Shown here: one piece after another, positions 11,366 to 63,826 of the stretch
How positions within the stretch are numbered: position 1 is the first letter of the stretch
How the letters are laid out: the number at the start of each line of letters is the position of its first letter
DNA from: Phalacrocorax aristotelis
Lineage: Eukaryota; Chordata; Aves; Suliformes; Phalacrocoracidae
Assembly: GCF_949628215.1 (NCBI RefSeq)
Contig: NC_134288.1
Coordinates: 10,361,682 to 10,425,681, forward strand
Reading direction: 5' to 3'
DNA: 64,000 bases
Translations under genes and position numbers: made by a program
The notes under the pieces: model-generated
Databases searched by the model: none
The model's input: the letters and a program-made list of their open reading frames with translations, nothing else
What the model was told of the DNA's origin: nothing

Positions 11366-11737
11366 GTGAGCGGGGCGGCCGAGGCGGGGTCGGGTTAGGG
11401 TTAGGTGTTCGTTGCCGGCCCCGTGGCGGCGGGTCGCGCTGCAAGAGCCCAGGCTGTAGCGGGGGAGCGGTGCCGTGCGTGGGCCCTAGTGGGTGCCGTG
11501 GCTGGGGAGGGCAGGGCCCGGCTTCCCCTCGGACTCTCTCATCGCCTTTTGGCGCTCGTTCGCTGCGGGAGCATCGATCGGTTTCTTCCGAGGGAAGAAG
11601 AGGGACGGGGGGGTAGATGGTAGCTTCTGCGGGCAAAAGCTCCTTATCCAAAAAGCTGCTCATCTTAAGCAAACTGTCTGAATATGTTCTGAGTTCCCGG
11701 CAAGGACACAGTTAAACACGCCTTTATTTTGCTGATA

Positions 11738-14700
11738 ATGGATGAAGAGAGCCTGGAAGCAGCAATTCAGACCTACAATGCCCAGCTGCAGCAAGTGGAG
11801 CTGGCTATAGGGGCAGGCCTGGACCCATCGCAGCAGTCGGACTTGATTCAGTTGCAGGAAGATTTAAAGCAGCTGATAGAACTGACTGAATCTAGTCTGG
11901 TGTCTGTTAAAAAGAGCAAACTTCTGGCTACTTTAGATACAAATGCTTCCTCCTCCTCCTCCCCAGCAGGTCTTGGGGAGCAGGAAGCCAACCCAGACAC
12001 TTCTGCCCAAGATAAGGAGTATGCTGCTTTTAAGGAAGCCATTGCTGAGCTTGGAACTGATGAGAAGCCTTCGGCTAATAACAATGAGATGTCATCAAAG
12101 AGAGATGAAGAAACTGATGACAAAAATGAATCAAAGTTCAGTGAAGAGGAGGAGGAGTCTGACAGAGAGGAGGAGGAGTTGAGCGGGATGAAGGTTAAAG
12201 CCCCCTACTACAGTTCTTGGGGGACCCTGGAGTATCATAATGCCATGATTGTGGGGACAGAGGACTTAGAAGATGGCAGTGCGGGCGTCAGAGTGCTGTA
12301 CCTCTATCCAACTCACAAGTCTCTGAAGCCGTGCCCGTTCTTCTTGGATGACAAATGCAGATTTAAAGAGAACTGTCGGTAAAAGAGAAAAGGGGGTGGG
12401 AGGGGGCGTGTGTCCTTCCTGTAGCCAAAGGTCTTGTCATTCAAAAGGATAAACCTCCTCTGAAAGTACCGTGTTTGGCTTTTATACCCAATGAAATGTT
12501 GCCTTTTTGTTTATGTTTTTAAAATGTGTCATGGCAAACAGTGGCATCAGTTGGGCTGTTTTCTTTAGCTAACACAGAGATGAAATGGAAAGTTGCCCAT
12601 GGGGGAGGTTGCAGAGGTTTTACATAATCAAGTGGCTAAATTAATAACTGATTAAGTATTTTAAAATAAAACATGAAAGCTTCTCTGTCAATAGTGCATA
12701 TATAGTGCGTACATTCCAGTTGCATGTAGGGGTTGTAGGGTCTGCGTCTCTGGAGGTCTTCAGAACTTACCTAGATAAGGCCTTAAGCACCCTCCCTGAT
12801 CAGTCTTTGAGGTTGGTTGTGCTTCGAGCAGGAGGTTGGTCTAGCAATGCACGTGTCTGTGATCCTGTTTATCTCAAAGGATCTGTGAACTTTTTTTACT
12901 GGATATGTCACTAGAAAGGAAAGCTTAATTCTCTCGCATAGGATCTGTTCTTTATTACATGGCCTAAGTAACACATTTAAGATGAAAAATGAATAACTTG
13001 TTTAACTGAAATAATGCATGATGAAACCTATGTAATTACTGGTGAAGATTCATCACTGCTGACAACTCATTTGCATTGCCTTCGAGGAGAGAAGGAATTT
13101 TCATTTAAAGCCTCTTCAAATGAGGAAGAGATAATTCCTCTTCTGCCTTCCCTGGCAGGTTTTCGCATGGTCAGGTGGTCTCTGTGGAAGAGCTTCAGCC
13201 CTTTCAGGAGCCCAATCTGAGCGGGCTGGAGGTGGGCTCAGCTTGCCTGGCGAAATACAGCGATGGAATATGGTACACGGCAAAAATAACCGGTGAGTCT
13301 TGTGTGAGTGTGCTTTGCCAGGGTTCTGTGTGGAAGGTGAAGGCTGATGCTTGCTTAAGTGAATATAAAACTTGATAGAATGATAGAAAAACATTAACTA
13401 TGTAGCTGCACCCCTAAGCTGAAAAGCTTGACATGGCTGAGAAAATGTTCTGAATTTTGTCAGGCCTGGGAAGGGAATAGGCTAGGAAACAAAAGTGTGT
13501 TAGACAAAAAGGAGACATTAGAGCAGGAACATGGAAAAGAAATCACTGTGTGGTCGTTAACTGCACCGAAAAGGAAGAAGGTATTGCAGGAATTTGTGTG
13601 CATATTAGGTTAGAATTCCAATAATCTGCTCTCATTTAAAAAAAGCCAGGGGAGCTGGCCCTGCCCATCAGCTGCTGGTCCTGGCTTCTCTGTGTCCTGG
13701 GAAGGGTGAGGGTTTTTCTTTTTTTCCATCTTTCTTTGACTATTATTAGGTCAGAGGGGAGCAAGTGTAACTTCTCTTTAATTCCATCTCTCAGCAGACC
13801 ATCTTTCTTCATTTTTAGAAAAAAAACCTTGAAGTATCAACACAGGCCTTGTGGAAATAGCTTTTCATTGCAGTGGGTGGTTCTTCCTTCCAGACAGAAA
13901 TCCAAAGCACAAAGAAAAAACAGGTTTTTTTAAAACACACGTTCCATGGACCTTACCCCTCTCCCATGTTGTTCCGCTGGAGCTAGCTCTTGTTTTAGAA
14001 AGCCCTCTGCCAGTTGCATATTGTCAACTGACTTGAACTCTTGTTCCTTGCTTTTCCTTCTGTAGATATCGACAGTGGTTACTATACTGTGAAGTTTGAT
14101 TCCCTGCTGCTCAAGGAAGCCGTTGTGGAAGCAGATAGTGTCATCCCCCCACTGCGAAGTGAAGATGGTGCCTCATCTGCTGAGTCTGATGAGGACAGCG
14201 TTGATGATTCTGGTTACGCTAAAGGTAAGAGAGTGGGGAGGGTCTGAGCAAAAGTGACATGTGATTTAGGTGACCTGCTGAGTTACTCTCCTGGAGCTTT
14301 CATTGTAAGTGTCTCACCTCTGATGAAAGAGTAGCTAATCCCTCTATATGTTGCTGAAAGACAGAGAATGGTAATTAGCTATTATGTTACAATTAGAAAC
14401 GAAAATCTTTGGTTTATGCAAATTACTGGGCTAATGAAGGTTGGAGGTTTCCATGGGAACTCCCAACATGGGAAAGTAGAGGGTGTGGTATTTCAGAGCC
14501 AAGTTCCAAGTTCTGAGTCTCTCTTATGTGGCTGGCTGAGTTGAGCTAATAAGTGAATCAGGAGACTTCCTCATCTCTGGGAGCCACATGTAGCCTCATG
14601 ATACCAGAGTCTGAGACCCCAGGAACTGTGGGCGTTTGGTCCTTCCAGTGCCTCGATGAGGTCGCAGGATCAGCCATGTCCTGCTCAATACCTCATTTCA

Positions 14701-22300: not shown

Positions 22301-24302
22301 AATTGCTCTCCAGGGGTTAAGGCTTCAGTCAGAGAAGCTTCCAAAGGCGTGGGAAGTTCTCAGATAAAAGGGTGCTGCTTAAGTGGGCAGAGACTTGCTG
22401 GTTACTGGGGTACAGATGCGGCAAAGGCACTGCCATGTGGCACGGGGTGCAGGGGAGAGGGGAGTGACACCGGTCCCTCGACGGGCTCACATCTCCCTGC
22501 TCGCCCTTGGGCTGGGGCTGCCGTAGCACCCGAGATTGACATGAGGCAGGGTGGCTTCTCACCAGAGCTCGTCTGATCTTTGTCATCTGGATTAAGATAT
22601 GTAAGAGGGTAAGTAAGAGGTGTGCAGGTGCCCATGGCCATGGGCTTTCTGTATCCCCAGTTGTGCTAGTGGAAGCCGTCCTGCTCGGCTATGCCGGCCG
22701 CATCCCACCTAGGGGCTCTGCTGCCGGCCCCATCTGGATCAGTTACTGTGGCTTCTTCGAGCCATGCTTTACTCCAGTGCTGGGAAACTGCCTCCATCTC
22801 TCTCTGGATGCTGGCATGCAGATCTCTAGTAGTCGGCCAGCCTTTCTGGGGAGCGGAGTGTGCATGGAGCGGGGTGTGCACAGAGCTGGGCTTGCACTGA
22901 GCTGGGAGCAGCAGCCGCCGTCTTGACACTGGGGCAGGTGAAGTGGTGTCAGCTTTTGCTTTGGGCTTTGCAGCACACTGATGGCTGAGTGGGGACAGGA
23001 ACGATGGGATGGGGTGTCACCAAGAACCCCCCCTGGAAAAGGTGCAGGATCCTGACGGGCTAGGGAGCATCTGCTCTTTGTGTTGGGCTCCTTGGCACCT
23101 TCATGTCTCTGTGCAGCTTGCTCTGGCCTTGCTGCTGACGTGGTTTGCAGGGGAGGACCATTTTCCTTGACTAAGGCACAGGGAAGAAGGCGCGCTTTGG
23201 GCAAGGCATGGCCTTTTCTTTAGGCAGAGGAAAGTGGTTGAAAGGTTGGGCATTTTTTGCTCTCGTGTCACAGCACAGAGAAGCTGCAGAACCAGGGTTA
23301 TGGTGTCAGAGGTGGCGCAGGGTCTGTGTATGCCGCGTTGTGGGTGGCAAAGAGCTGGCCTGGCTGGGCTGGTGCTTGGCTGAGATCCCACACCTCCTGG
23401 CCCAAGTGTGGATCATGCTGGGATGCTGCAGGGAGCGACCCAGGTTTCTGTGACAGCAGAAATATCACAGTGGGGTTTGCAGGGCTGGGCTGGGCTGAGC
23501 CCCTGGGAGCTCGCCATGCACTGTGCTGCAGACGGGGTGACACTGGTGATGCTGGCAGCATGGTCACTCCCACCTGGGATTTTCTTCCTGGTGACTCCGC
23601 AGGTCCCATGGCATGGATGGACAGGGCCAAAACCTGTGGGGTTGAGAGGGGGAGAGGGTGAGACCTGCTGCAGAAAGAGGGTGTCCCGGTGCGGCTGCCA
23701 AGCCTGGTGTGCGAGGAGGGAGAGGTGGCTGCAAGGCTGAAGCTCGCCCTGTTTCCGGGAAGCTGAGTCATCTGTTTGCCCATCCTGTCTCTGCCACCCC
23801 AGGGCCTGTGCTGGGGAGCAGCGCTGCTCCCGTCCCACAGCCCAGGGCGGTGTCCCAGTGTCCCCAGAAAGCACACTGGCACTTTCCAGGATGTCTCCAG
23901 AGGGTTTTCAGGGCCCTGGGCATCTTCTTTTCAATGTCTTGGTGGCAGCTTGGGAGCTTGGATCCTGTTGGGTTTTGGAGTTTTGTTTGTTTGTTTGTTT
24001 TTCTTAAAAAGGAACAAAAATCTGAAATTTTTCCAGGGGGTGGCAGAGCACCTGCTGCAGGGTGTCTGCACCAGGGTGGGCAGAGCAGTGGAGGCATCAC
24101 AGTGACCCTGGAGAGGGCAGTGGCTGGTCAGAAAACAGGGCTCCCAGTGCACATCCCCCTCCAGAGCATCTGGAGAGACCTCCTGCCCAAGGGCGGTGCT
24201 GCAGGGGTCCTGGCAAGCCCTGTAGGCAGTGGAGCACTACCTCATGCTGTGGTGAGCCCAGCAACGCTCAGATGCACCCTGACTTGTGTTTTCTCTCCCC
24301 AG
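19331..24302. other. ZGPAT-LIME1 intergenic region, probable LIME1 leader region
   Basis: I see no coding exon here. GC content rises from about 22.3 kb onward, where many long open frames on both strands are a by-product of composition. LIME1 coding exon 1 begins with an acceptor (24302/24303), so at least one noncoding LIME1 exon must lie somewhere in this stretch, but I cannot place it. A short (CAG)n run is near 21227. Confidence 0.6.
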
Positions 24303-24339
24303 AGCTCAGCTCCGCAGTGGTGTTGGAAGCAGCTCCCCC

Positions 24340-26591
24340 ATGGCTGCAGCCAGTGGCGAGGGGCTGGCACAGACTCCACTCCTGCCAGCCAGCACTGCCC
24401 TGGCCCTTCTCGGCATCCTGGTCTACCTGGGCACCCTGTGTGCTGCCTGCAGACGGTACGCACTGCCCACAGCCCCTCTGCTTTCCCTCCTGGTGCTGGG
24501 GCTGGAGGCCCCTTGGTGGCACACAGTGGCTGCATGTGGAAACCCCGCATGTGCCTGTCCTGAGCTGGGACTGCTGGCATCTACTGCTCTGTTCACCTCG
24601 AACTCCCAGCTGCAGCCCCAGTACAACTCTGCCTGGCCTGATCCTGCTCCCCTCTGCCTCACTGCCCTCTGCCACACCCTTGTGCCCAAAGGAGCTGGTA
24701 CCAGCTGGGGATGGGGGACATGGCCTTGCAGGAGCTGCCTGGAGAGATCTGTGAGCAGGATGGGCAGGATGGGTGATGCTGGGTGATGCTGGGGATGTCT
24801 GGCATTGCTCAGCAGGGCGCGGGATGTACTTGAGCCCCCAGCCAGCACAGACCCTGCTGCGGGGCTGGAGAAGGAGCAGGGTTGTGGGTTTGGGGGGTGC
24901 TGCTGCCCTGGTGAGGGGCACACAGCGATGCCCATTGCGGCCAAGTTGGGGCGCTGGGGCACCCACTCCTTGCCCCCAGCTTGGCCACCCACCTCAGATT
25001 CAGCCCTGCTTCTCCCTGCAGCAAGGGCAGGAAGAAGAAGGTCCCTCCGGATGGGGTGAAGCTGGTTGACGAGGTAGGCATATGCTGAGCAGGGGCAGGA
25101 TCAGCCCTGGGGGAGCTCTGGGCACCGTAGCTCCCAGCCACGAGCCTGACATGCATTTCCCCCGTTGCAGTCCCTGCTCAGACAGACACAGCTGCGGTCG
25201 CTCAGCAAGTCTGACACGAAGCTGCATGAGCTATACCGGGTGAAGGCCAGGGACGACAGTGAGTGGCGGGTGCCCACAGTCCCCACACCGCCCGGCGAGC
25301 GCATCGCGGCATGCACACACATGCCATGGTGCCCCCGTGGTGCTGGCACAGGGGTTGCTGTATCCCCGGCGTCCTCCCATCTGCTCTCCTCTCCCTGCAG
25401 CTCAGCGGCCAGCCAGCCTGGATTTCCCCTGCACCGTGTTCCCCCCCACCGATGCCAACTCCCTGCACAGCTCCAGCATCAGCGTCCTCCTGCACCGTGA
25501 GCTGCCCCAGATCCCTGTCCCTGAGCCCCGAGCTGCCTCCCCGGCCCCCGATCAGACCTACTCCAACCTGCTCTTCACCCCGCTGCGGAAGCCAGTGCCA
25601 GACACTGTCTATGAGTGCCTGGCGATGGGGGGGGAGGATGCACCGGTGTCCCCTGCACCCACCAGCACCCAGCTGTCCCCACCCCGCGCTGGGCATGGGG
25701 CAGCCGATTATGCCTGTGTCCGCAAGGTGAAGAAGATGGTGCCCACGGAGGTGCAGGATGGGGCCGTGGCAGGGCCTCACGCAGCCCCACAGTGCTGGGA
25801 CAGTGATGCCTCCCAGGTGAAGGTATGGCTCTGGGCGGGTGGCAGGGATGGGGCGTGGGGCTGGTGCTGGGCTTGCTGGATGGAGCCACGTAACACCCTG
25901 CCTCCCTGTGTTCGGAGCAGGGTGTAAATGAGGCTACTGCATTCCCAGTGGAGCTTTTAGTGGGGGGCAGGATGAAGCTGAGACCCCGAGGGCCGGTGAT
26001 GCCCACAGTGCTGGTCTCAGTGTCCTCCAAAAGGCTCCTGAGTCATGGCAGAATAAGTGGGATCCCCATCGGGTAATCCACTGCTGGAATCCAGCCGGGG
26101 ACTGTGGGAAGCCTGGGGGGGCGTGGGTGTGGGGATGCCCTGCAGTGGGCAGGGATTGCCCCTGAACCCCCACCTTCCCTTTGCAGCTGGAAGAGATGTA
26201 CTCGACGGTGTGCAAAACCACCAAGAAGAAAACCCAGGTCCCTGCATCATCCCCAAGGGCAGCGAGGGAGGCGGGTGCTGGGCGGTCGCTCCCCTGCCAG
26301 GAGGAGGGTGCCTCAGCCGGGTGCTGGTCCCCAGCAGGTCAAGGTCCCCCTGACCCCTGCTACGAGTCCATCAGCGACAGAGCCTGGACTGCTCAGGGCC
26401 ACGGCCCCGACCCAGACTATGAGGCTGTGAACGTTAACTGGAAGAAGGCGGCGAAACGGGACAAGCTGGGGAAGCCTTGTGCCCCTGAGAACCTGTACGA
26501 AAGTGTCAGTGACATTTGGGCAGGGGAGCCCCGTCGAGCCTCTGCTAGGATGGCAGCGAATGGGCTGGAGGTGTACATCACCAACCTATAG
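24340..26591 (+). CDS. LIME1: Lck-interacting transmembrane adaptor 1
   Basis: Raft-resident adaptor of lymphocytes which, once tyrosine-phosphorylated, binds SH2 proteins such as Lck, Csk and Grb2. Five exons in phase: 24340-24455, 25022-25073, 25171-25258, 25401-25822 and 26187-26591, giving 360 aa (human 295). A short extracellular end is followed by one membrane helix (about residues 17-33), then CAAC (C34 and C37), the expected palmitoylation motif, and a basic stop-transfer KGRKKK. The tail has tyrosine motifs YSNL (YxN, Grb2 type), YECL, YACV, EEMYSTV (like the Csk site of PAG), YESI, YEAV, YESV and YITN. It ends in ITNL, a class I PDZ ligand pattern. The ATG at 24340 is the first in its exon after acceptor 24302/24303. 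Gene order supports LIME1 rather than the related PAG1. Confidence 0.9.
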
Positions 26592-34700: not shown

Positions 34701-36422
34701 GGGCACCCATGGGTGCTTTTGCACGTGGTGATGTCCCCAGCACAGTGTGGCCACCATGACTCTGTGCCATCCCTGTCCCCCAAACACAAGCCACCCCTGT
34801 GTTGGGTGCAGACCCAGACAGCATGAGTAGGGAGTCCCAGCACCTTGGTGGATGATGGAGAGGGATGAAGGGTCCGAGGGGGCCATGTCCATCCTCACTG
34901 CAGCCCCCCCGCTTTGCTCTCGCTGGCAGGAAGCTCTCGGGCAAGGCAGGCATTGACGAAGTGATGGCGGCCACGGTGCTCACCAGCCTCTCCACCAGCC
35001 CACTGGTGCTTGGTCACCCGCCAGCCACCCCCGCCCCAGGTAAGTGCGTGCCCCTGTCCTCCCCTCACCATCCCTGGACACGTGTCCCATGACAGGACCT
35101 GACCTTCCTCCTCCTCACCAGAACCCGGCAGTGAGGTCTGGAAGGAGGCACCCACCATGTCCTCCAGCTGCAGCAGCAGCAGCAACACCAGCGGGGACTG
35201 GAGCTGGGACCCTCCCAGCGACCGCTCCACCCCCTCCACCCCATCGCCCCCGCTCTCCAGCCACGTCCCCAGCACCTTCCTGCCTGCCCCGCTGCCGGAC
35301 GAGGGCCCCGACGAGCCTGACAGCACCCACTTCGTCTTCGGAGAGCCCATCCCACGGAAGAGGAAGGTGGGATGAAGCTGTGGATGATGATGGGGTTGAG
35401 GTTGGGATGGGGATCATGAGGATGGGGATGAAGGGGAGGATGACGTTAGGGATGGGGATGACGGCAGGCCAGGGATGACTGTGGGATGTGGACGGTGATG
35501 GGGATGAGCCTGGGGATGACAGTGGGGTTGGGGATGGGGATGGGCTGCCAGCCTGACACCTCTCTGCTGCAGAACTCCACCAAGGTGATGTTCAAGTGCT
35601 TGTGGAAGAGCTGTGGCAAAGTCCTCAGCAGCTCCTCAGGGATGCAGAAGCACATCCGAACCATGCACCTTGGGTAAGCGTGTGGGGTCTACCCGGACAC
35701 CCCCAGGCCCCCTGGTGCCCCCTGCAGGGTCCTGCCATGGTGGGGGAGAGAGCCCCCCCCCCCCAGCCAGACCCTGCTCTCCCCGCAGCCGGAAAGCCGA
35801 CCTCGAGCAGAGCGACGGCGAGGAGGACTTCTACTACACGGAGCTGGACGTGGATGTGGACTCGCTGACAGACGGGCTCTCCAGCCTGACACCCGTCTCG
35901 CCCACCTCCTCGGTGCCGCCCACCTTCCCCGGCCCTGAGGTGCAGGGTCCGGTGCCACCGGCGCTGCCGACCCCCGACCCGGCACTGGCCTCCCCTCGCA
36001 GCCCCCTGGCCCCCGCTGGCCTCTGCCACATCCACACCGACCACGCGTACCAGGTGAGATGGGGGATGGGGATGGAGGGGCCGCTGCTCGCCGCATCACT
36101 GTCACCCTCCGGCTCTGACGTGTGGCCGTGTCCTCCCTCGGCAGGGCTGCCCGGCCCCTCTGCGGCCACCGGTGCCCCCCACCACGCCCACCCCGCCACC
36201 GCCCAAGCCACCCGCTGTCCCCAGGTAAGCCACCACCATCCGCGCCCCCACCCCATCCCCTCATGTCCGTGTGTCCTCCCCACACCATGACGTGTCCCCT
36301 CTGCCCGCAGGAGGCCGCGGGGGGAGGCCAAGAAGTGCCGCAAGGTGTATGGCATGGAGAACCGGGAGATGTGGTGCACGGCGTGCCGCTGGAAGAAGGC
36401 CTGCCAGCGCTTCCTCGACTGA
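31791..36422 (+). CDS. SLC2A4RG: SLC2A4 regulator (GLUT4 enhancer factor / HDBP1)
   Basis: Nuclear transcription factor related to ZNF395 and ZNF704, known to bind the GLUT4 promoter and a huntingtin promoter element. Eight exons in phase: 31791-31907, 33809-33990, 34930-35039, 35122-35366, 35573-35673, 35789-36053, 36145-36224 and 36311-36422, giving 403 aa (human 387). Exon 1 is low complexity (Arg5, Pro6, Gly6 runs). Conserved blocks are [20 protein letters not shown], a C2H2 finger with C227, C232, H245 and H250, then [21 protein letters not shown]-clamp-like end follows ([20 protein letters not shown]376, C389, C392, C398). An in-frame ATG at 31677 would add 38 residues but overlaps a CCAAT box, so I prefer 31791. 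Intron 1 contains a tandem array. Confidence 0.95.
32186..33660 (+). repeat. Tandem array, about 12 units of ~138 bp, in SLC2A4RG intron 1
   Basis: A unit carrying GGATCC or GGATCT recurs with spacing 129-143 bases: landmarks at 32396, 32525, 32659, 32797, 32938 (drifted), 33081, 33224, 33357 and 33493, with weaker copies before and after. Each unit also contains a CTGCTCTGCAGAG-like core and an ATCCCAGCC segment. Because units are near a multiple of three, a long frame stays open through half the array; I regard it as non-coding intron. Confidence 0.88.
33991..34929 (+). other. SLC2A4RG intron 2
   Basis: Non-coding stretch of 939 bases between exons 2 and 3 with no recognised feature. Open frames here have no family similarity I can name. 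Confidence 0.7.
35368..35548 (+). repeat. GGGATG-rich simple repeat in SLC2A4RG intron 4
   Basis: Almost the whole intron is made of drifting GGGATGGGGATGA-type units. It is confined between the donor at 35366 and the acceptor at 35572. Confidence 0.85.
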
Positions 36423-42985: not shown

Positions 42986-45900
42986 CTAAGAAATCCAGGC
43001 AAAATCCTTGTCGTTCTCTCCAGAGTTGTCCTGGTCCTGCGGAGAGTCGACATCTTTGTCATCATCTAAAATCACATCATCTTGTGACATTCCCACATCA
43101 TCCTTCCACTTGATGTCATCATCATCTCCCATCTCCTCGTCTCCTTCCACTTTGATGTCATCTGGGTCTTCCATGTACTGGCCTTCCCCGGGGTAGCACT
43201 CGTCTGGAGAGCCGTCTCCTCCGTTGTGGTCCAGGTGACCAGCTATGCCTCGACCAGAGCAATCGGCACAAACCCCGTGGCGGCGAGAGCCGTGCTTAAT
43301 CCCCACGCTGGCTGCAGACATGAACACTCGGTTGCACACTTTGCAGACGTACTTTTTATCTTTGCTGTGGACCTGGAAAAGGACAACGATCAGAAACATT
43401 CATGCCAAAGGAGATGGATGGAGAGCTGCAGGGAAGGGCACGTTCCCCTGTCCCTCTGCAAAGGCAAAACCACTGTAGCCAAAGGTAGTCACGGGCTTTC
43501 ATCACTGAGCTTGAACACACCATGCTTAATTCAACCCTGTAATGGCGTCATACAATGGAAAGTACCTTTGAGACTGCCTTTTGATCATCAAACTCATAGT
43601 TTTGAGAACTTTTATCACTTAATTTTTTCTCCCCTTTTTGTTTTTCTGGGGTGCAATACTGGCATTACACGATCACCATGAGGAAAATCTTAAAAAGAAA
43701 AGCCCTACCAGCCCCAAGCACCAGCTCTCTGCAGAACAGCCCACAAAGAAACCGGTGTTAACATCATGCTAATATTGCCGTCTCGCTCCTCAGCCCATTG
43801 CTGCCAAGAACCAAAGACTAGGAGCACTGTTAACACATCTGTATCTCTAAAAACATGCAGCCGAATGCTCTTCTAACCTTATCTCTGACTACTTTGGTGG
43901 CTGAAAAATGGTTTGTCACAAATGTTTCTATTCCATAAACCATGCTGCATTTTATGTCTGAGAATAACAGGCATACAGAGCTATCACACTTACAGAATAA
44001 GATGTAAGTGGGAAAGTGCTCTGTGGGATACCAGAAATCACTTCAGGATTCAAACTTCACTACACAAAAAGCAAAATGACATACTTTGAGAAGCTCAAAA
44101 ACAGCTAATCAAAGGTGAAATCTGTTGCTGGCTACTTTTGTCATGTGTAGAAGGCAAGGAGCTTGCTCAAAATGTTCACCTGCTCCTCTCCCAAAGAAAA
44201 CAGCTGACCAGTGCAGCAAGAACTCCTGAATTCCACCATGAGGAGCCTCATCAGGTACTTTTTTCATACTTTTTTTATATATATATACACACACGCTTGT
44301 GTATATATATGTTAAATAAATATATATAATATATTAAAAATACATATATATAGAGATTTCATTTATATATAGAATAGTTCAGTTGGAAGGGACCTACAAC
44401 CACCATTTAGTCCAAGTGCCTGACTACTTCAGGGCTGACCAATATATATTATACATATATATATACACACACAAAAAAAAGAATGTATTATTTATTTTTA
44501 AATATATTAACGCCACACTGGGACAGCCCAGGAGCTTGCCTTGGCCCGCACCCTGTTGCTGGCACTGATCACCAGGAGACACTTTGGGCAGCAGTGTAGA
44601 AGTAGAGAAGGATCCACCTTGTACTACGCTGTCCGTGACCAGTGATTTGTGGTTGACCTGAGCAAGGAATTTCGTGCAGGATATCAGCAACCAGAGCCTC
44701 TGGGCAGGTACTGCCACTGCCTAATCCTGTTTTAACTCATTTATTCTTTTCATGCTCACAACGGCCTGTAGGAAAGGTCTTGCTCGTTAAATGCACCTTG
44801 CGTGGAGAAGTCCGTCCTTTTATTTTAAGCCAGCCGCCTGGCGAGGGCAGCTCCCCGCTCCTGCCCCAGCATGGGACTGCCTGCTCTCACAACCAGATTC
44901 TCCATAACCCTGCACTCACTGCTCATCTGGAATACCCAGCTGAGCTAAAGGTATTTGGGAAGACCCAAATTGACCCATCTTACCCCCTCAGCCCTCACTA
45001 CCACAGGACACTCGCTCAAGCTTTGTATTGCACTGGTCCCAACCGCGTTCAAAGCCTGCGAGCTCTTCTGATGTGCTCCGGCTTCAGGTTCTCCTTGCTC
45101 TGAGTTAGTCCCTGCGATGTATTCTTCAACTGCATCACACAAAGTCACTGTATTTTTTTTTTAAACTACAGGTAAGCTTTTTATAAAAGCAGTTGGACAG
45201 GGCTGGTCAAAGCCATCTAACAGGCTTAATAGGTGTTGCTCATTTTTAACTGTTAGGAGAATGATTTTCAGGCATCAAAAGCTGATTAAGATTACAGTAG
45301 GTGGTCAAGGGTGCAGAATAAGGGCTAAAAGAGCCATACAAAAAAGAAATTATGAAACAGGTACTAAAACAATGGACAACTGAAATATCTGTTAAAAAAA
45401 CTAATCACCTCTCTCCCTCTTTTCCAACACCAACAAGTTTTAGACAGGATATTCGCAGCCAACCGTATTACTGGAGGCAGCTGAGCAGAAATTTAATCCT
45501 ATTTCCCTTATCGCCAAATTAGTAAGTACTAAACACAGAAATGGCATTTGGCCCTCTGGAGCCGAAAAGACCGACCATATTCCAACTGACTAAATATCAA
45601 TATTCCAAGAGAGAGAGGGTCAAACATTGTGCTGACAACATCCTAAATTTCTGGGGGGAAAAAACATTAAAGAAAAAAAAAAAGGAAAGGTCTGAGAAAT
45701 ACAATGATGGAGGCAACCAGGTGGCACAACAAGGTGTTCCCTCCTGCAAAACTAGTAACAGAGCTTGAAATCTGTTCACTTGCAGCAGGACTAAGCTCTC
45801 TGCTTGGATCTGCCTCCCGAACACCAGAACCCCAACAACCCAAGGAAATCACAAAGGGGCATCTCGGGGAGCAGGCAAGTCCCCCGAGCAGATGGCTGGG

Positions 45901-48900: not shown

Positions 48901-51900
48901 TGAAGACAGCATTAGCGGTTCTACCTCCCATCCCTAATGCCCAGGCTCTCCCCACCAGTCAGACTTGCTTTGGAAGGAGAAGGCCGTGCTGGAGAGCAAG
49001 GCTGGGTTTGCAAGGCCAGCTCAGCCCGGGCAGCGCTGATGGCTCAGCTGTGCAGCTCAGGAACCTCTGGCTGAGCTAGGAGGGCAGGTGGAGGTTAGCT
49101 CTGGATGAACAGGCAGCAAGACACGGGCCCTTTGAAAGGTGGGGAAAAAAGATACTGCAGAAGCCTTCAGAGAAGTCCCAAAGGGGAAAGCAAAATACAG
49201 ACCTAAACCAGATGAAAATCCTGTTATCTCTAACCTGAACAAATCAGCCGTTTCCACCCAATGCCTGCCCTCTTACCAAGGTGTGCCGCTTCATGTGCTC
49301 CCGGCGGGTGAACTTCTTCCCACAGATCTCGCAGGGATAGGGTCTTTCTCCCGTGTGGGATCGCATGTGTCTCTTCAGGATGCACTGATGCATGGCCGAA
49401 AAACTGCAGTACGGGCACTTGAATTTCTTCCTGATGACTGTGAACTCGTTGACTGTAAGAGCAAGCATAACACGCAGATTACTTTCAGAACATCTCAGTC
49501 TTCTCACCATTTCACTATTAAATTAGTTCACTGTGAAATCACCCTCTTACCTCTTAACCATCTAAATTTTTTTTAAATCCTGATACTGTGTTATTGCACT
49601 TATATTATTAAAGCTAAGAACTTCAAGTACCTTCATCAGAGAAGCTTTTGAAAAAGCCAATACACAAACATTTAGCAACAGTGTGTAACACACATTGCCT
49701 CATGCTTGCTAAATGCAAATAAAGAGGGCTGACAATCTGCTGTAATTCTTTATTATAATGAATTATCCTAAATATGAAGATCTAAAATTCTAACACTGTT
49801 ATTTGTAGAAGTAGCAGCTAGCCGTGAACAGAAGAACACAAACCTAACACCCCAACAGTGCTGCATGCTTTAGTTTTCTTTACGGGGTAATGTAAGAACA
49901 TCATCACACACTGCAGGAGAAAGTCTACCCAGAAGGAAGAGGACAGTTACGACAAACACACACTACATTATCCAACTCGACTAGTATTACCATTGCAGCA
50001 TGGATACAGAAATATAAAGGGATGCACAATGTTGAATTACAGCACGACCCTTGCAAGCCTCCTTACGAGACAACTGCATATAGCCCTTGATGGACTTTTT
50101 TTCTGTCCCCCCAATTTGTATTTTGCTGAACTAGAAAAGGGATGAATTCTTTGAAGTCATTCTGACATTGTTGATTCTTTTCTTCTTGTCATCTCCTTAG
50201 AAGCACACTGAAAGCGGACACAGGGGACGCGTACAGTATCGACAGCCCAAGGGTCTAATTTGCCAGAAGAATTCACATGGCAGCTGCCTTGGTATTTCTC
50301 CTCCAAACAAAGTGAAAGCACAATATGCAAACTACAGCAGGTGAACACAGTATATTTGCTATTCCCTGAAGACACCTACCCACTGTAAGTCTGGAAGTGA
50401 CTGTCCACATACATGTGATTTTAAATCTCCACCTTCTAATAATTCTACTCTTTTCCATTAGTATGATAATTTTCACCCACTATTCTCCTAATTACTGTAA
50501 TTTCTCAAAGCAATATATTGTTTACATAACAACGAGGGTGGGGAGAAAGAATGCAAGTTCTACTTAATCACCTCAAGTACGCTATCGTGTATGTAAATGG
50601 CTTTTGGTAAATGAAAACAGTCTATGTAGGAGCGCTAAGGGAACAGGGGAAATACCAGACCTACTATACGGCTTCTAACATATTGAGTACTTTGCAATAT
50701 TTTTAGGTGCTTATTGAAATGTTATTTGCTACGAATGCCTTACCAGCTGAATGCGCACTGCATGCGCTCAGTACACCACAGATAATGCCCTGGGAGTTAC
50801 ACTGTACCCTGAAAACAGCTACTTAAAAATTGGCTTTTTAAAGAAAGTCATTAGGCCCATGTACACAGTGTTGTTTGCTTTAATGTCTGATTTGTGGGCT
50901 TCTTTTTCCTTTTGTTTTTAAAATTTACTTTGTTTCGTATTTGCAATACAGATAAAACAATACGAAAAGTAACTACATTTGTCACTCATGTAAAAGTGCA
51001 AACTACATGATGCTACGAAGAGACATCTTTAAACAGAGTAACATGACCCTTCATAATCAGAGCAAACATTTCAACACAAGCTCATCTTAGGAAAGTACTC
51101 TAAGAAGTTTTTTATTGTTCTAATGCAGACTAAAAGTATGCTTCAAGATCTTAAAAGTTGCCATGACATGAATTTTGTCTTCACATTTGTTTTGACTATT
51201 TGGCATTAAACACATCCTCCACATGGGTAACTTTCTGGGAAAAACTACTCCCTCTGGCAGTTTGAATTGGATCTAGTAGTCTTATATTCTTTTCTCATGC
51301 TCCTAACTTGCTGCTCTGGGCTGCTCAGCAACTGTAGTGGTCCATCCTACAGGTGCTTTTTTTTGGTGGTTTGGCAGGTTTTCTCCCAGCACATTTGTAA
51401 AGCCATCAAGAGAATTTTCTAGCCCAAGGTAAAAAAAAAAAGCCTACTCACCCTCACCTGGGCCGTGGCTGCAATACTGATGACAGGGAAAGTGAATGCT
51501 AAGAATATTTTATTCACCCATCAGTAGAGATTACTCACTGTGATGAGGCAGAATTTTGAAGGGCTGGTTTCAAGTGACTCTGCACAGACAGATTTGCACT
51601 GCGCTGGGAACCTCCCAGAGGAGACAGTTCAACATGGCCTGACGCCCAGAGCCTTGTGCAAGCTCCTGGTGATAGCCTAACAACTCGTCTGGGCCGCACA
51701 ACCCTTCTCCTGCCCCAAGCCTAACTCCTGAATTACAGTACATTTTTTCCTTTTTTAAAAACAGAATATGAAAACTCTCTTTTATTTAACAGAAGTATTG
51801 TTTGCTTTACTTTCTCCTTTGGATTTGACACCCCCTTGTCTGTACAATCAGAGGCAAGGAGCCCACTTTCTTCTACAGGAAAGTCTTAAGCAAGTATCAA

Positions 51901-54900: not shown

Positions 54901-57900
54901 GAGTCAAAAATTTACAGAATTTCTGAAAACTGCAGCCATACTCCAGCATATTTTTTAAAAAGTCCTACATTACTCAAATATAGTATCAATAGACAAGCTT
55001 TGCAACAACTTTCAAGCCCAAATAATATACCCTGTTGCACATATGAACAAGCAGCATGTTTTTCTCCTTTAAATGACACAGAAAAATCAGACTTACATAA
55101 AACAGCTCACATGACTGAGCAATCCAGTGCTTTCACAGCTCCTACAAGGTGAAAAACTTTGAAATACCCGAACTGTCTAATGGACGGAGCACTACACCAG
55201 AACTCAGAAGACTGAATTCCATTATTAAGTCTATTGCTAATATGCTCAAACTGAAGCATGTTATTTTCCCAGGGAATATGAGGAAATCATCACCATTTCT
55301 TTTATAAAGCACTTTGAGATCTACTGATAAAAAAAGAAGTTTAAAGGTAGTATAAGCACACAGTATGATCACACCAAGATAGCCAAAATGCCCATTATAC
55401 AGACTGACAAAAGTCACCTTTGCAGAGAAATTGCACCATGGCTCCGTTACAGAGTATCTAGAACCAGCACATTATCAACCTGATCAGCTTTGGAGAGTTA
55501 CTCTCTTGTGTTACACCTGTGGTACATTTATTTGCAGCATGAGAACAATGGAACAATTTGCTTTTCTTAGTTTAGAAGAAGCGCCTCATACATGCAACAG
55601 TAGCTACGCATCCACATGATCCTCGTTTTGTCCTACACTGTCCAAAAGCTCGAACTCGCCCAGCTGGGCGGAGCCCAGGTAACACACTTTCACATGGTTA
55701 GTGAGATTCTTCTGTGTACCGAAGCCCTTGCCACAGAAGAGACACACAAAGGTACGCTCGTTTGAGTGCACAGACATAAGGTGCCGGTTTAAGTCTGTCT
55801 TGTCTCGAAACAGCTTGGCACAGTTAGGACACTGCATCTTCTTACAGTTGAAGTGGATGGTCTTTTCATGCCGATCCATGTTTGATTTCAGAGTGAAGCT
55901 CGCGGGGCATTTGGAGCACTGGAAGCGGGCGAGCTGGACAGGAGGCACGCTGTCAGCGAAGCCAGGCTGGGAGCAGTCGACCAAGTCAAATGGAAGAAGC
56001 ATGGAGAAAACATGCTCGTGGAAGTGCTCCTTCAGCTCTTCAGCACACTGGAAAACCCTCCTGCAGAAACCACAGGTCAGCCTCTTGGCTAGGGCTGAAT
56101 CCAGGAACAGGCCACCAGTGGTTATGTCCATGTCTTCAGATCTCGAGAAACTCGTATCTAAAACAGAAACACAGATACACACGTACAAATCAGTGTCTTC
56201 TGGTGTCAAACAATGACAGTTCAGAAAAATATTTTTCTCTCTACCTACCTGAATCAGAGTTATCAAACTGCCAAAGTGCTAAAAATCCATCATAAGTGGC
56301 CTGCAAATGAAAAGATTCCTTAAGTTAAGGCAAGCACTTACAAGAACACATCTTTGTAGTTAGTGCTTAGACTCCCATCTTACCATTGCCGTCACCCGTC
56401 CTTTAAGGGAAGCTCACCATTTGACTCCGTGACCTTATTTGCCTTTACAAAGCTTTCACTGTCAAAGCAGCTAAGTTAACTGGGCCACAATTTGCAAGAT
56501 TTGATGTTTAAAGACAGTAATCAACGTGTCTATTTAGGTGCTGGGTAACTACTCAGTTTTGAGTCTTGCAAAGCATCTGTAGCTCCCACTCAGGCCAATG
56601 GGAAAGAAACACTGGATAGAAAACGCCTAGCAGATACAACAGACTGGAAAAATCTCCCTTAGCCCTACATAGCTACTTTTGCTTTCCACATAGAAAAGCC
56701 CGTAGAAAACAAACACCTTCTGGGTAGCTCCCTTTATGCAATGCTCTCTGGCATCGCCGATCCACATTATAAATAAAAGCTGGTTTGTTTTTTTCCCCCC
56801 CCACCATAAAGCATTTGCAATATGCCAGTGTGCGGCAGATGGCAACCCTCTATGAGGCAGAGGCATGACGCAGCCTGGCCAGGTCTGCTGGAGACTGGGC
56901 AAGCGGCTACCAGCCGTTCTTACCAGCTCACTTTCCTCTAAGGTGACTGCAAAGGAAGATCTGTGTTTCCACCCATTTTTTTTAAATGGAACTAGTCTCA
57001 TTCAAAAATATTAAGAATACGAAATGCCACAGAAAGCTATGGATTTTACCTCAAACTCCTGACTCCTGTCGCCAGCCTGCTTCTATAACCCAATTTAGAC
57101 AGTTACAAGAAACCCAAATGCAAAACACCAGAAGTGGGCAATGGATAGCCAGGGTCTCAGCTATCTTTATGCATTATTATATTCTTGTCTGCAATGCTTT
57201 GCAAACAAAGGGATTTACAATATAAAGGGCATGTATACCTTAAAAAAAATAGGGTTTTTTTTGAACACAAGTTCTGTTGAAGTAAGGCAGAAAGGATAAA
57301 ATTAGGACAGTACTAGTCCTGACCTCAACTGGCTTCTACTTTTAAAATAACCTATATTTAAAAAAAAAAAAAAAAAAAAAGAGCTACCAGATCAAAGTAT
57401 AAGGTATTATGGTCTTTCAAAGTGCTCCTAACTGGGGAGAATTTGATTAAACAGATACCTTTGCATTTAAATGTCTCTGCATTTTCCCCCACAATCTTAC
57501 CTGGGCTGAGGAAGGCACCTCTCCTTTTATCATGGTTTCTGGTGACATTTCACCAGAGGAGCAGATCTCAGGGGGGCTCTGAGTGGCAAGGTGTGATGAA
57601 GGCAGCAGGGGAGATGGTGCTTCCACTTTGCCATCACATTCGCCCCTTGAACGATTCAAGTTGGTGCCAGGCCCTGGGGAACACAGGAAACGAATCTCAC
57701 CCACGTGAACTAGCACCAGCTGGTGGTTTTAAAAAAGGCCTTGCAAAGGCAGCGCACCAGCACTCACAGCTTATCTTCTGTCAGTGGGAGGGAATGCAGC
57801 AGGACAGTGATGCCAGGCTTTTGTTTGTTTGTTTTAAAACCAGCCTCCCCACCCAAAATGCCTCGGCTGTGCGTGATGTATGTAGTGGAGATATATCGCA

Positions 57901-60900: not shown

Positions 60901-63826
60901 TTTACAATACACAATGAATTAGGAAAAAAGAACACAGGGTAAAAAAAAAAACTTGGGGTATCCTCTATTAACTTCTACAACAGTATGAACTATGTGGAAG
61001 GAAAATTAAAACTTGTAATGTATGCAGTAGCTCGGAGAGTAATATCCCCTTTAGAAATGGCTTATCAGAATTTTAAACGTGTATAATATGCTCTTCGGAT
61101 CTGCCCACTTCCATTAAGTCTTTTCCTCCAGAACAGAAAAATAATAAACATGAACACTGCTCCTTGAGTCAGTTCCTTACCATATTACTTCATAACTAGA
61201 TTGCCTTCGTATTCTCTTATGGCAGTTAAGATTAAAAACACACTTCACTTTTTTTTAAACTCGAGAGATTATTCACTTAAAAATCTTGAAAACAGTGCGT
61301 TTCCTTTTCAGATCAGACAGATGAAAACTGCCACACACTGTGCTGGTTTTGGTTTTTAAAAAATAGAATATTTTTCACTGTGCTCCTGCCTACTCCCCCA
61401 CAATGCCCCCCCCCTTTTTTTTTTTTTAATATAACCCAGGACTTAAAATGACTCAACATCCTCAAATTGTGTTTGAAGAGAAATGTGAAAAACATGTACA
61501 AAGCGAGCACCAATCTAGACTGTGCTTTTAGATCTCTAGAATCTTCTTACCACTTGCTTTAATGTAATTTTATACACTGAAAATTCTCATTAAACTTGAT
61601 ATTCTATTGTATTCAGTAATGACCATTTAAAAGCAAGCGAGTCATGTATCAGAACATCTTCTTCAAAGTGATTAAAATAAATTGATACCTGTGAATCTGA
61701 ATAAGATGAAAGAAAAATATGTGCCTTAATTCCCTGCCTCTGTAAAAATCCTCTTACCAGGTCACGGCCACATCCACCTACCAGTGCGAGAGCTACAAAC
61801 CAAGCAAGCAGTTCTCGTTTTGTCTTAGGCAATTCACTTTGCTTCCACAAAGATGATATATTTGAAGCTTAGCTAAATAAAATTCAAGTAATAGCAAGAG
61901 AACTGGAAAACAGGAGCCTCAAATACAGGCCGAAACGACCTCCAGAGCCCCTCAATGAGCGATCATTTACCCTCTTTTCTAGATCTATCAAGCTTTATTT
62001 TAAACCAGTTGGTCTTCTGCTTATACCATGCCTGTTCTCAAACTCTGCTTCTCAGCTGGTCAGGCAATCTGTAATTTCTAGGCAAAATTTATGACTGCCT
62101 TATACTCATTTGTCTTTACACCAAGTGGTCCTTCAGCTTTTAAGTAAAAGCTTGAAATCCTCCAAACAAGGGGAGGATGATGGATAGAGGGAAGCCCCTT
62201 CATTACTCCAGTTTATCATGACAGAAGATGAAACCACTGATTTCACCTGTCACAAGTCACAGGTCTGAACACATGGTGCATAAATCACCCTTGCAGCCAT
62301 GCATCCATTTATGCTCCCACCCATCCCGGTGCCAGCTGAGGGCACTCTTCTTGCTGCACGCAAGCTTGGCAATTAAACTGCTGCACAGGATCTTTGCTAT
62401 TTCATTGCAACGAAGGGATTTTCAACCCAGGAGCCTAGTTTGAACCATCTGAATCTGATTTAATTGGAGATTGTTCAGTAAGCAAACTACTGTGGAAGAA
62501 ACAAGAATGCTGCATGAGCAATTCTCCCCCAAACATTAAAACTGCAGAATAAGGTACAAAAAAAAGTTTTTCCCCTCTAAATTTGGAAAGATTTTTTAAA
62601 AAACATAATTCTACTGTTCAGACATAAGAAGCAAAAAGAGATACTAAGACTGATATTATATTGTGCATTTTTTGACCCTTTATCGTACAACCCAAGTGAC
62701 CATTAAAAGGTATCAGGGTTTTTTGCCATCAAGGAAACTAAAAGTAAGTATCTTTCTTGAACTTTTCATTCTATTTAATTGGTCAATTTTCTCAGCATAG
62801 ATTAAAATAAACCTTTTCTCCTGGAAACTAACACTTAGTCAGAAAGCCACCGCTTGCTCTATTTTGTGTCACAAATGATACCCCATCCTCTGAGAGTATT
62901 ATTAAAGTACAGCATTAATACTTTTTCTTTCTTTGTGCATTGGAGAATCAAACTATTTTACGATTGCAATGAAGAATACAAAAGTATGCTGAAAAATGAG
63001 CTGTCCACACATAATGGCACATATCAGCCATCTTCAACAGATCACCAGAAGAAAAACATTCATTTCCATGAGCGAGTATAATGAAACAATCAATAGCTGC
63101 TCATTACTTAGAGAGCTCTAAAAGTAAACAGCAGTAAGTGAAGATCACACAACCTACAAAAATCACAACTGTTTCTACACACAGGAGCAACAGTCAAGCC
63201 TCCTTTCAACACGAGGCAATTTTGGATTCAAAACCTTTGCAGCTACTTTTACCATAAGGACTCACGTACTTTTTATTTCGTTTGTAAGTACCATTTTGCA
63301 AACAAGTAAAACAGAAATTTGAGGACAAGTGCTACAAACATACGCACTGAATACTTTCCTCCATGACTTCAGCAGTTAACGTTAAAGTTGGATCAATACC
63401 AGACACAGGTTTCCAAGTTTTATGGAAAGTGGGATTAAGCAGGATTTCAAACTGGATATAAACACATCAGTAGTAATAAAGGAGACAGTGACCTGCAGTT
63501 TCTTCTCACTAAAGTAAACAAAAAATATAAAAACACAAACTTACGAGAGAGAGAATGCGTGCCTTTGGGTAAGTACTCAAACAGCAGAGAACTATCCTCT
63601 CCCAGCATGTCGGCTTTCAGAGACAGCAAACTGTTCTTACTCATGAGAGCCGCACGCAGGTTGGCAACGGTGGCAGCCTGGAGTGCATCCTCCTTCTCTG
63701 GAGTCAGGGGCTGAGAGATGTAGCTGGCTTCCCCACCGATTAGGGCTTCGTCAACATTCGCGTAGGGGTCTGATCGCTCCACCCTGCTGTCAGAGCTGCT
63801 GGGCTCTGTTACTGTCACGTCAGCAC
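42986..63826 (-). CDS. ZBTB46: Zinc finger and BTB domain protein 46, known C-terminal form (5'-partial)
   Basis: BTB zinc-finger repressor that marks the classical dendritic-cell lineage and also acts in endothelium. The window holds three coding exons of the known form: 63545-63826 (shared), 49277-49452 and 42986-43372, about 280 residues. The BTB exon is to the right of the window. The shared exon ends in [15 protein letters not shown] and breaks a codon after its first base. The next exon completes it as Leu and encodes [15 protein letters not shown], then two C2H2 fingers joined by HTGERPYPC. The last exon starts [17 protein letters not shown], a third finger-like CxxC with HGSRRH, then an acidic tail ending DKDFAWIS. 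The tail holds IKVEGDEE, a SUMO-site pattern. All phases agree. Gene order next to SLC2A4RG supports the name. Confidence 0.95.
44275..44345. repeat. TA-rich microsatellite
   Basis: Runs of TA with interspersed CACA and TATATAATATATT, followed closely by a short CR1 remnant. A second TA run lies near 44440-44470. Confidence 0.85.
44372..44440 (-). mobile_element. CR1 LINE 3'-end remnant
   Basis: The minus strand reads GGTCCCTTCCAACTGAACTA and then TTCTATAT, the known CR1 3' terminus (GGTCCCTTCCAACC ... ATTCTAT). Only some 70 bases remain recognisable. Confidence 0.75.
46921..46990. repeat. Seven exact copies of CACAGAATCC
   Basis: Perfect 10-base tandem repeat at the 3' end of the adjoining CR1. 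CR1 tails usually carry a few copies of an 8-base unit of ATTCTRTG type; this unit has two additional bases. Confidence 0.97.
46921..47482 (-). mobile_element. CR1 LINE 3' fragment with expanded tail
   Basis: The minus strand encodes the end of the CR1 reverse transcriptase frame ([19 protein letters not shown]) and the 3' UTR with GGTCCCTTCCAACCTGGGAT. The terminal tail has grown into seven perfect copies of a 10-base unit (46921-46990). The element is 5'-truncated; the right edge near 47482 is approximate. Its subfamily differs from the copy at 10.4 kb. Confidence 0.9.
49453..55526 (-). other. ZBTB46 intron, part below the alternative cassette
   Basis: About 6 kb of AT-rich intron between the known two-finger exon and the alternative terminal exon. 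I see no exon or named repeat in it. Confidence 0.65.
55527..55532 (-). terminator. ZBTB46: Candidate poly(A) signal for the alternative ZBTB46 end
   Basis: AATAAA on the minus strand, 72 bases after the TAG of the alternative terminal exon. The minus strand next contains GGTTGATAATGTGCTGGTTC, a plausible GU-rich downstream element. This would give an exceptionally short 3' UTR. Confidence 0.45.
55604..56157 (-). CDS. ZBTB46: Alternative ZBTB46 terminal exon with four zinc fingers
   Basis: Exon of 554 bases after acceptor CTGTTTTAG, open to a TAG at 55604. It completes the codon left by 56249-56300 (G+AT, Asp) and begins [11 protein letters not shown]. Finger 1 starts CGFCRRVF (C-x2-C-x12-H-x3-H). 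After a 30-residue gap come finger 2 ([10 protein letters not shown], x12, H-x4-H), finger 3 ([10 protein letters not shown], x12, H-x4-H) and finger 4 ([10 protein letters not shown], x12, H-x3-C, a C2HC type). Fingers 3 and 4 are joined by HSNERTF, similar to the TGEKP linker. GC and CpG content stand well above the surrounding intron, as expected of a conserved exon. These fingers differ from the known ZBTB46 pair. It could also be part of another gene, but no other first exon is evident. Confidence 0.82.
56249..56300 (-). CDS. ZBTB46: Alternative ZBTB46 cassette, middle exon
   Basis: Small exon of 52 bases between acceptor CATTTGCAG and donor CAG|GTAGGTAG. It starts in phase 0, encodes [17 protein letters not shown] and leaves one base that the next exon completes. 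Both phases fit their neighbours, which is the chief support for so short an exon. Confidence 0.7.
57501..57673 (-). CDS. ZBTB46: Alternative ZBTB46 cassette, first exon
   Basis: Exon of 173 bases between acceptor TGTTCCCCAG and donor CAG|GTAAGATT. Its first two bases complete the split codon left by the shared exon 63545-63826 (C+GG, Arg instead of the Leu of the known form), and it ends in phase 0. It encodes 57 residues rich in Pro and Ser ([18 protein letters not shown]), with a [11 protein letters not shown]-site pattern near the end (57519-57530). It has no zinc-finger residues and looks like a flexible linker between the BTB half and the four-finger exon. Confidence 0.78.
57674..63544 (-). 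other. ZBTB46 intron, part above the alternative cassette
   Basis: AT-rich intron between the shared exon and the alternative cassette, with short A/T runs. An open block at 61700-61850 is discussed under findings. No repeat family recognised. Confidence 0.6.

Follow-up and report, generated by a model that had tools for sequence, protein, structure and literature searches.

The window analysed here, a stretch of 64,000 nucleotides of the Phalacrocorax aristotelis genome, holds within intron 3 of the ZBTB46 gene (14,092 nt) three minus-strand exons that are open in one frame, at 57673-57501, 56300-56249, and 56157-55604. It is likely that together they make up a genuine cassette of alternative last exons for ZBTB46, by which one BTB domain could be given either of two zinc-finger ends. 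The observation itself, which was made in a first-pass annotation of the same letters, is confirmed by our analysis, and its reading as an alternative ending of the gene is probable.

The ZBTB46 locus and the three exons of intron 3

The minus strand of the window carries a ZBTB46 orthologue, whose exons were searched for in the window extended by 60 kb (~124 kb in total). The name ZBTB46 (also BTBD4, BZEL, and zDC) rests on general features of the human protein, on exon lengths, and on neighbours. On the plus strand, open frames resemble what we take to be ZGPAT, LIME1, and SLC2A4RG, in an order that we assume to be that of the human genes; together, these neighbouring frames span 11693-36290. 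The features of the locus are as follows.

82150-81181 (extended coordinates), minus strand: BTB exon, coding for the N-terminal BTB domain, in frame with the shared exon
63545-63826, minus strand: shared exon of 282 nt, equivalent to human exon 3, in phase 1 at either end, with its donor at 63544
57501-57673, minus strand: alternative exon 1, 173 nt, 57 full codons, acceptor in the top 0.36% of AG and donor in the top 0.12% of GT
56249-56300, minus strand: alternative exon 2, 52 nt, acceptor in the top 4.46%, donor in the top 0.22%
55604-56157, minus strand: alternative terminal coding exon (exon 3), 554 nt including TAG, four zinc fingers, acceptor in the top 1.78%
55527-55532, minus strand: AATAAA hexamer, 72 nt past the TAG of alternative exon 3
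49277-49452, minus strand: known two-finger exon, the competing splice choice, acceptor in the top 2.14% of all AG
42986-43372, minus strand: known terminal coding exon, protein end DKDFAWIS
11693-12382, plus strand: open frame, presumably ZGPAT-like
about 24283-26591, plus strand: open frames, presumably LIME1-like
35589-36290, plus strand: open frame, presumably SLC2A4RG-like, with a C2H2-like motif at 35597-35668

The identity of the gene given by the first-pass annotation is borne out, in that the BTB, shared, two-finger, and terminal exons were all located. The exon structure matches that of the human gene: the BTB exon and the shared exon add up to 1252 nt here and their human counterparts, exons 2 and 3, to 1255 nt (PMC13421333), and the fingers lie in the next exon in both. 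In human, the zinc-finger domain is assigned to exon 4, and the accessible part of that study names no other ending. When joined, the known form has 593 aa, of which the last 187 follow the shared exon, and its second finger is split by an intron. In the Pfam search, PF00651 is found with an E-value of 6e-27 on the joined protein.

By its length and its phases, the shared exon could be left out of either form with the reading frame preserved. Because the BTB exon and the shared exon end in the same phase, either ending could directly follow the BTB exon, and such skipping would bring either finger set nearer to the BTB domain.

The last base of the shared exon, C, opens a codon that is completed at either acceptor: the TC at 49452 gives CTC (Leu), and the GG at 57673 gives CGG (Arg). 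The later junctions of the alternative exons are in phase 0 and then in phase 1, all of the alternative-exon junctions have GT-AG, and the 259 codons run without disruption to a TAG stop at 55606-55604. The exon coordinates, phases, and junction codons (Leu/Arg) of the first-pass annotation were all exact when the sequence was re-read, and the stop and nearby AATAAA that it had reported were found in place, the latter 72 nt on from the former. Its estimate of a new end of about 259 residues with four C2H2/C2HC fingers corresponds to exactly 259 aa and four pattern matches. On the minus strand of intron 3, AATAAA occurs 12 times in 14,092 nt, and for 8.3% of positions the next one downstream is no more than 100 nt away. 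The alternative protein would comprise 665 aa, of which 406 residues are common with the known form and 259 are new, compared with 187 in the known end. At the level of sequence, the locus is one BTB part with two phase-compatible finger ends.

The predicted four-finger end and its relatives

The new end contains four matches to the zinc-finger pattern, three of the C2H2 type and the last of the C2HC type, and all 16 zinc ligands are present.

56012-56074, minus strand: new finger 1, CX2CX12HX3H, with an acidic helix face by eye
55853-55918, minus strand: new finger 2, CX2CX12HX4H
55766-55831, minus strand: new finger 3, CX2CX12HX4H, with a seven-residue linker on each side
55682-55744, minus strand: new finger 4, of the C2HC type, CX2CX12HX3C

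Fingers 2-4 stand in tandem with seven-residue linkers, and finger 1 is set apart from them. Judged from this arrangement, fingers 2-4 would be expected to read DNA, finger 1 lying apart with its acidic helix face. In Pfam, the terminal exon matches zf-C2H2_4 with an E-value of 1.3e-14, four stretches being found individually at E<=1, and PF00096 and PF13894 are also above the cut-off. For the joined protein, Pfam finds both BTB and fingers by whole-protein E-values, no single finger reaching <=0.001 alone. For the beta-beta-alpha fold of C2H2 fingers, an AlphaFold2 prediction from a single sequence, without an alignment, reached a mean pLDDT of only 30.4. Among solved structures, 202 distinct sequences matched at E<=1; the best 60 of these 202 are all zinc-finger proteins by name, and no specific relative is apparent among those 60. 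NCBIfam, which is a prokaryote library, gave 0 families at E<=0.1. The viral and prokaryotic contigs gave 1 and 25 pattern matches, respectively, of which 0 were confirmed by tblastn, as expected from non-vertebrate collections.

The new fingers had been described as unrelated to the known pair, and the comparison agrees with this: the two forms have the same BTB and shared exons, and their tails show generic finger similarity only, with 35% identity over 51 aa. In the bird's own genome (1.28 Gb, 352 contigs), the finger exon has one full-length match, which is itself. Second to it in E-value comes a match with 38% identity across fingers 2-4, and the others stay at or below 42% identity among the 149 matches listed, the exon itself included, with 150 of the 476 candidates scored. 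The intactness of the exon was compared with neutral drift in a simulation that counts substitutions only and assumes descent from another finger gene. Of 2000 copies, 148 retained both the frame and the zinc ligands at 0.05 substitutions per site, 6 did so at 0.1, and 0 at 0.2, where identity to the starting sequence was still 67%. Since the finger exon is intact yet distant from the other finger genes found, constraint has most likely acted on it over a long period, an argument that is drawn from one genome and simulated drift.

The nearest relatives found for the known ZBTB46 fingers are four matches, at 55-63% identity, in the two-finger exons of paralogues that we take to be ZBTB8-like and ZBTB10-like. 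Around these loci, over stretches of 60 kb and 20 kb, the four-finger cassette was not seen. Outside the window, at C20:5856267-5886921, three genes that are presumably ZBTB8-like follow one another in the same orientation, and by eye a BTB frame and a two-finger exon accompany each of them. Two of these BTB frames closely resemble each other, so that a ZBTB8A-like gene may have been duplicated in tandem. A lola-like arrangement of the three two-finger exons was rejected by eye; three BTB-like frames accompany them.

Splice sites, coding signal, and rival explanations

Splice sites were scored with matrices that approximate published vertebrate frequencies and were ranked among the 6793 GT and 9068 AG on the gene's strand in 124 kb. 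With these matrices, the ranks of the five new sites run from the top 0.12% to the top 4.46%, compared with 1.87-4.17% for the sites of the shared and two-finger exons and 0.31 and 0.65% for those of the BTB exon. The two sites of alternative exon 1 and the donor of alternative exon 2 score above the sites of the shared and two-finger exons, and the acceptor of alternative exon 3 equals them. The acceptor of alternative exon 2 (top 4.46%) is the weakest among the acceptors scored for ZBTB46.

A gene finder was constrained to enter in phase 1, to use exactly three exons, and to accept only sites scoring >0, with intron 2 as the background and with a small codon model trained on the known ZBTB46 coding sequence itself. 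The best three-exon chain in intron 3 consisted of exactly the exons of the first-pass annotation, with a score of 51.8. The maximum chain score in 60 Markov-1 random introns was 31.5, and five of six real control stretches scored 25.0-32.7, but the remaining one, which is GC-rich (0.553 vs 0.391), reached 67.4 and thus exceeded 51.8. The terminal exon alone scored 25.2, compared with 9.5-28.3 for the six real controls and a maximum of 19.4 for the random introns; the GC-rich stretch, at 28.3, exceeds it, and intron 4 comes close at 23.3. Because the GC-rich control lies above both the chain and the terminal exon, the gene-finder scores alone are not decisive, and it is the fingers, rather than these scores, that decide that the exons exceed chance. 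The in-frame codon score is 0.164 per codon and is negative in the other five frames; the maximum among 5000 intron windows, drawn from the same intron that served as background, is 0.038.

Alternatively, though we regard this as unlikely, the intron could harbour an independent zinc-finger gene, in the orientation of ZBTB46, to which these exons belong. Such a gene would have a promoter of its own, its first exon would be non-coding or would code for a short stretch only, and translation would begin at the Met codons of alternative exon 1. Alternative exon 1 does have in-frame Met codons, the first of them after 41 codons that carry no codon-usage signal (LLR 0.0), and upstream in the intron there are nine weak phase-1 stretches from an ATG to a donor at a donor threshold of 0. 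However, the best donor among these nine single-exon starts scores 2.01 and comes with five residues, and at a donor score of >=2.2 there is no single intronic first coding exon, the sole candidate being the shared exon's own donor. Furthermore, intron 3 contains no CpG island, its observed/expected CpG ratio being 0.16-0.47 per kb; in the 49-65 kb and 97-101 kb computed, a CpG island (0.82-0.85) is found at 98.5-99.5 kb, upstream of the BTB exon. The stretch of 41 codons before the first Met was open by chance in 28.5% of resamplings (5703/20000), and a phase match with the ZBTB46 donor would occur by chance in 1 of 3 cases, so that a nested gene would have both features with a joint chance of roughly 10%. 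Ownership of the exons by ZBTB46 is favoured by their strand and position, by the phase match, by the frame open up to the acceptor, and by the lack of another likely start among single first exons.

It would also be conceivable, but quite improbable, that the exons are a dead relic, that is, a formerly functional alternative ending that is now unexpressed and still undecayed in this species. In favour of a relic, mammals are not known to have a four-finger ZBTB46 ending; nevertheless, the 259 codons are undisrupted, GT-AG is present at all junctions, and all zinc ligands are in place. Because only 6 of 2000 simulated copies were intact at 0.1 substitutions per site, such a death would have to be recent. 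That the frames are open by chance, or that they stem from retroposition of some other zinc-finger gene, is scarcely credible. Zinc-finger genes do leave retrocopies, and the GC-rich control stretch gave a higher-scoring chain of no known meaning, but the terminal exon has four complete fingers and a Pfam E-value of 1.3e-14, the presence of introns speaks against a plain retrocopy, and no close relative was found elsewhere in the genome among the 150 of 476 candidates scored. Given the introns and the single full-length genome match, a retrocopy or a recent duplicate was rejected, although weaker relatives may have escaped at that scope.

Proposed choice between two endings and its meaning

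In the preferred reading, the three exons form an alternative ending of ZBTB46, and we infer from the genome that they are transcribed, spliced from ZBTB46, translated, and kept by purifying selection, and that their product dimerises and has DNA targets. The shared donor at 63544 would splice either to 57673, giving the new form, or to 49452, giving the known form. Upon joining to 57673, two further introns would be removed, and the RNA would be cut and polyadenylated just past the AATAAA at 55532. The resulting protein would keep the first 406 residues, including the BTB domain, and the four-finger end of 259 residues would replace the end of 187 residues. Probably, the outcome depends on how splicing to 49452 competes with polyadenylation within the intron. 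The new acceptor at 57673 scores 8.13, compared with 5.16 for the known acceptor at 49452, and it is also nearer to the donor; because it is both stronger and nearer, the known form would need something that restrains the new exon. The known form might be favoured through repression of the new exon or by a weak poly(A) site, and the splice-site scores suggest that it probably needs active repression of alternative exon 1, whose sites are stronger. With a common BTB dimerisation domain, the two forms should be able to dimerise with each other and to recruit a common set of co-repressors, each form to DNA sites of its own, as would be expected from what holds for the family.

The arrangement can be compared with known systems. 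In Drosophila lola, common BTB-containing N-terminal exons are joined to unique finger-containing C-terminal exons in at least 20 forms (PMC1947980), and for fruitless (fru) at least three isoforms are described that differ in their finger domains (PMC3969150). Both lola and mod(mdg4) use trans-splicing, and most ends of mod(mdg4) carry FLYWCH domains (PMC11426971). The ZBTB46 locus too has one BTB part and at least two phase-compatible finger ends, known here from the DNA, but differs in that ordinary cis-splicing would suffice and in that two finger sets stand against about 20 ends in lola, far from the many ends found there. On the gene's strand, a pattern scan of ~124 kb, which misses fingers that are split by an intron or off pattern, gave the four new fingers and, besides them, a single known one. 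Several hidden finger sets of the lola kind were thus not found, the scan showing two sets on this strand. The lola parallel drawn in the first-pass annotation thus stands for the shared BTB part and the two in-phase ends but does not extend to the number of finger sets, of which the ~124 kb scan gave only two; it might be called fair as a way of working, but limited.

In skipped-terminal-exon intronic polyadenylation, a new acceptor in a long intron is followed by AAUAAA (PMC5928244). Intron 3 of ZBTB46 is similar in having a new acceptor and a poly(A) hexamer, whereas it has three new exons with a complete finger module in place of one small new exon that ends at the cleavage site.

Expression of ZBTB46 serves to distinguish conventional dendritic cells, and the gene is also expressed in dendritic cells of the chicken (PMC10634274). 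Among the literature matches listed, the chicken dendritic-cell work included, the accessible texts hold no report of a four-finger ZBTB46 ending, and a predicted isoform may already be annotated. Gene-level counts in published ZBTB46 expression work would not reveal a second ending. A wider claim, which we hold to be possible but rather doubtful, is that ZBTB46 has been a two-headed vertebrate factor since before birds, with one or the other of two unrelated DNA-binding modules placed on its BTB domain through terminal-exon choice, that one of these modules was lost or overlooked in mammals, and that the work on ZBTB46 as a dendritic-cell marker describes only half of the gene. If the alternative ending is true, gene-level expression, as well as 3′-end probes, antibodies, and tags, would conflate two forms or overlook a protein that has other DNA targets, and the logic of lola, in which one BTB part is combined with swappable finger ends, would be at work in a vertebrate.
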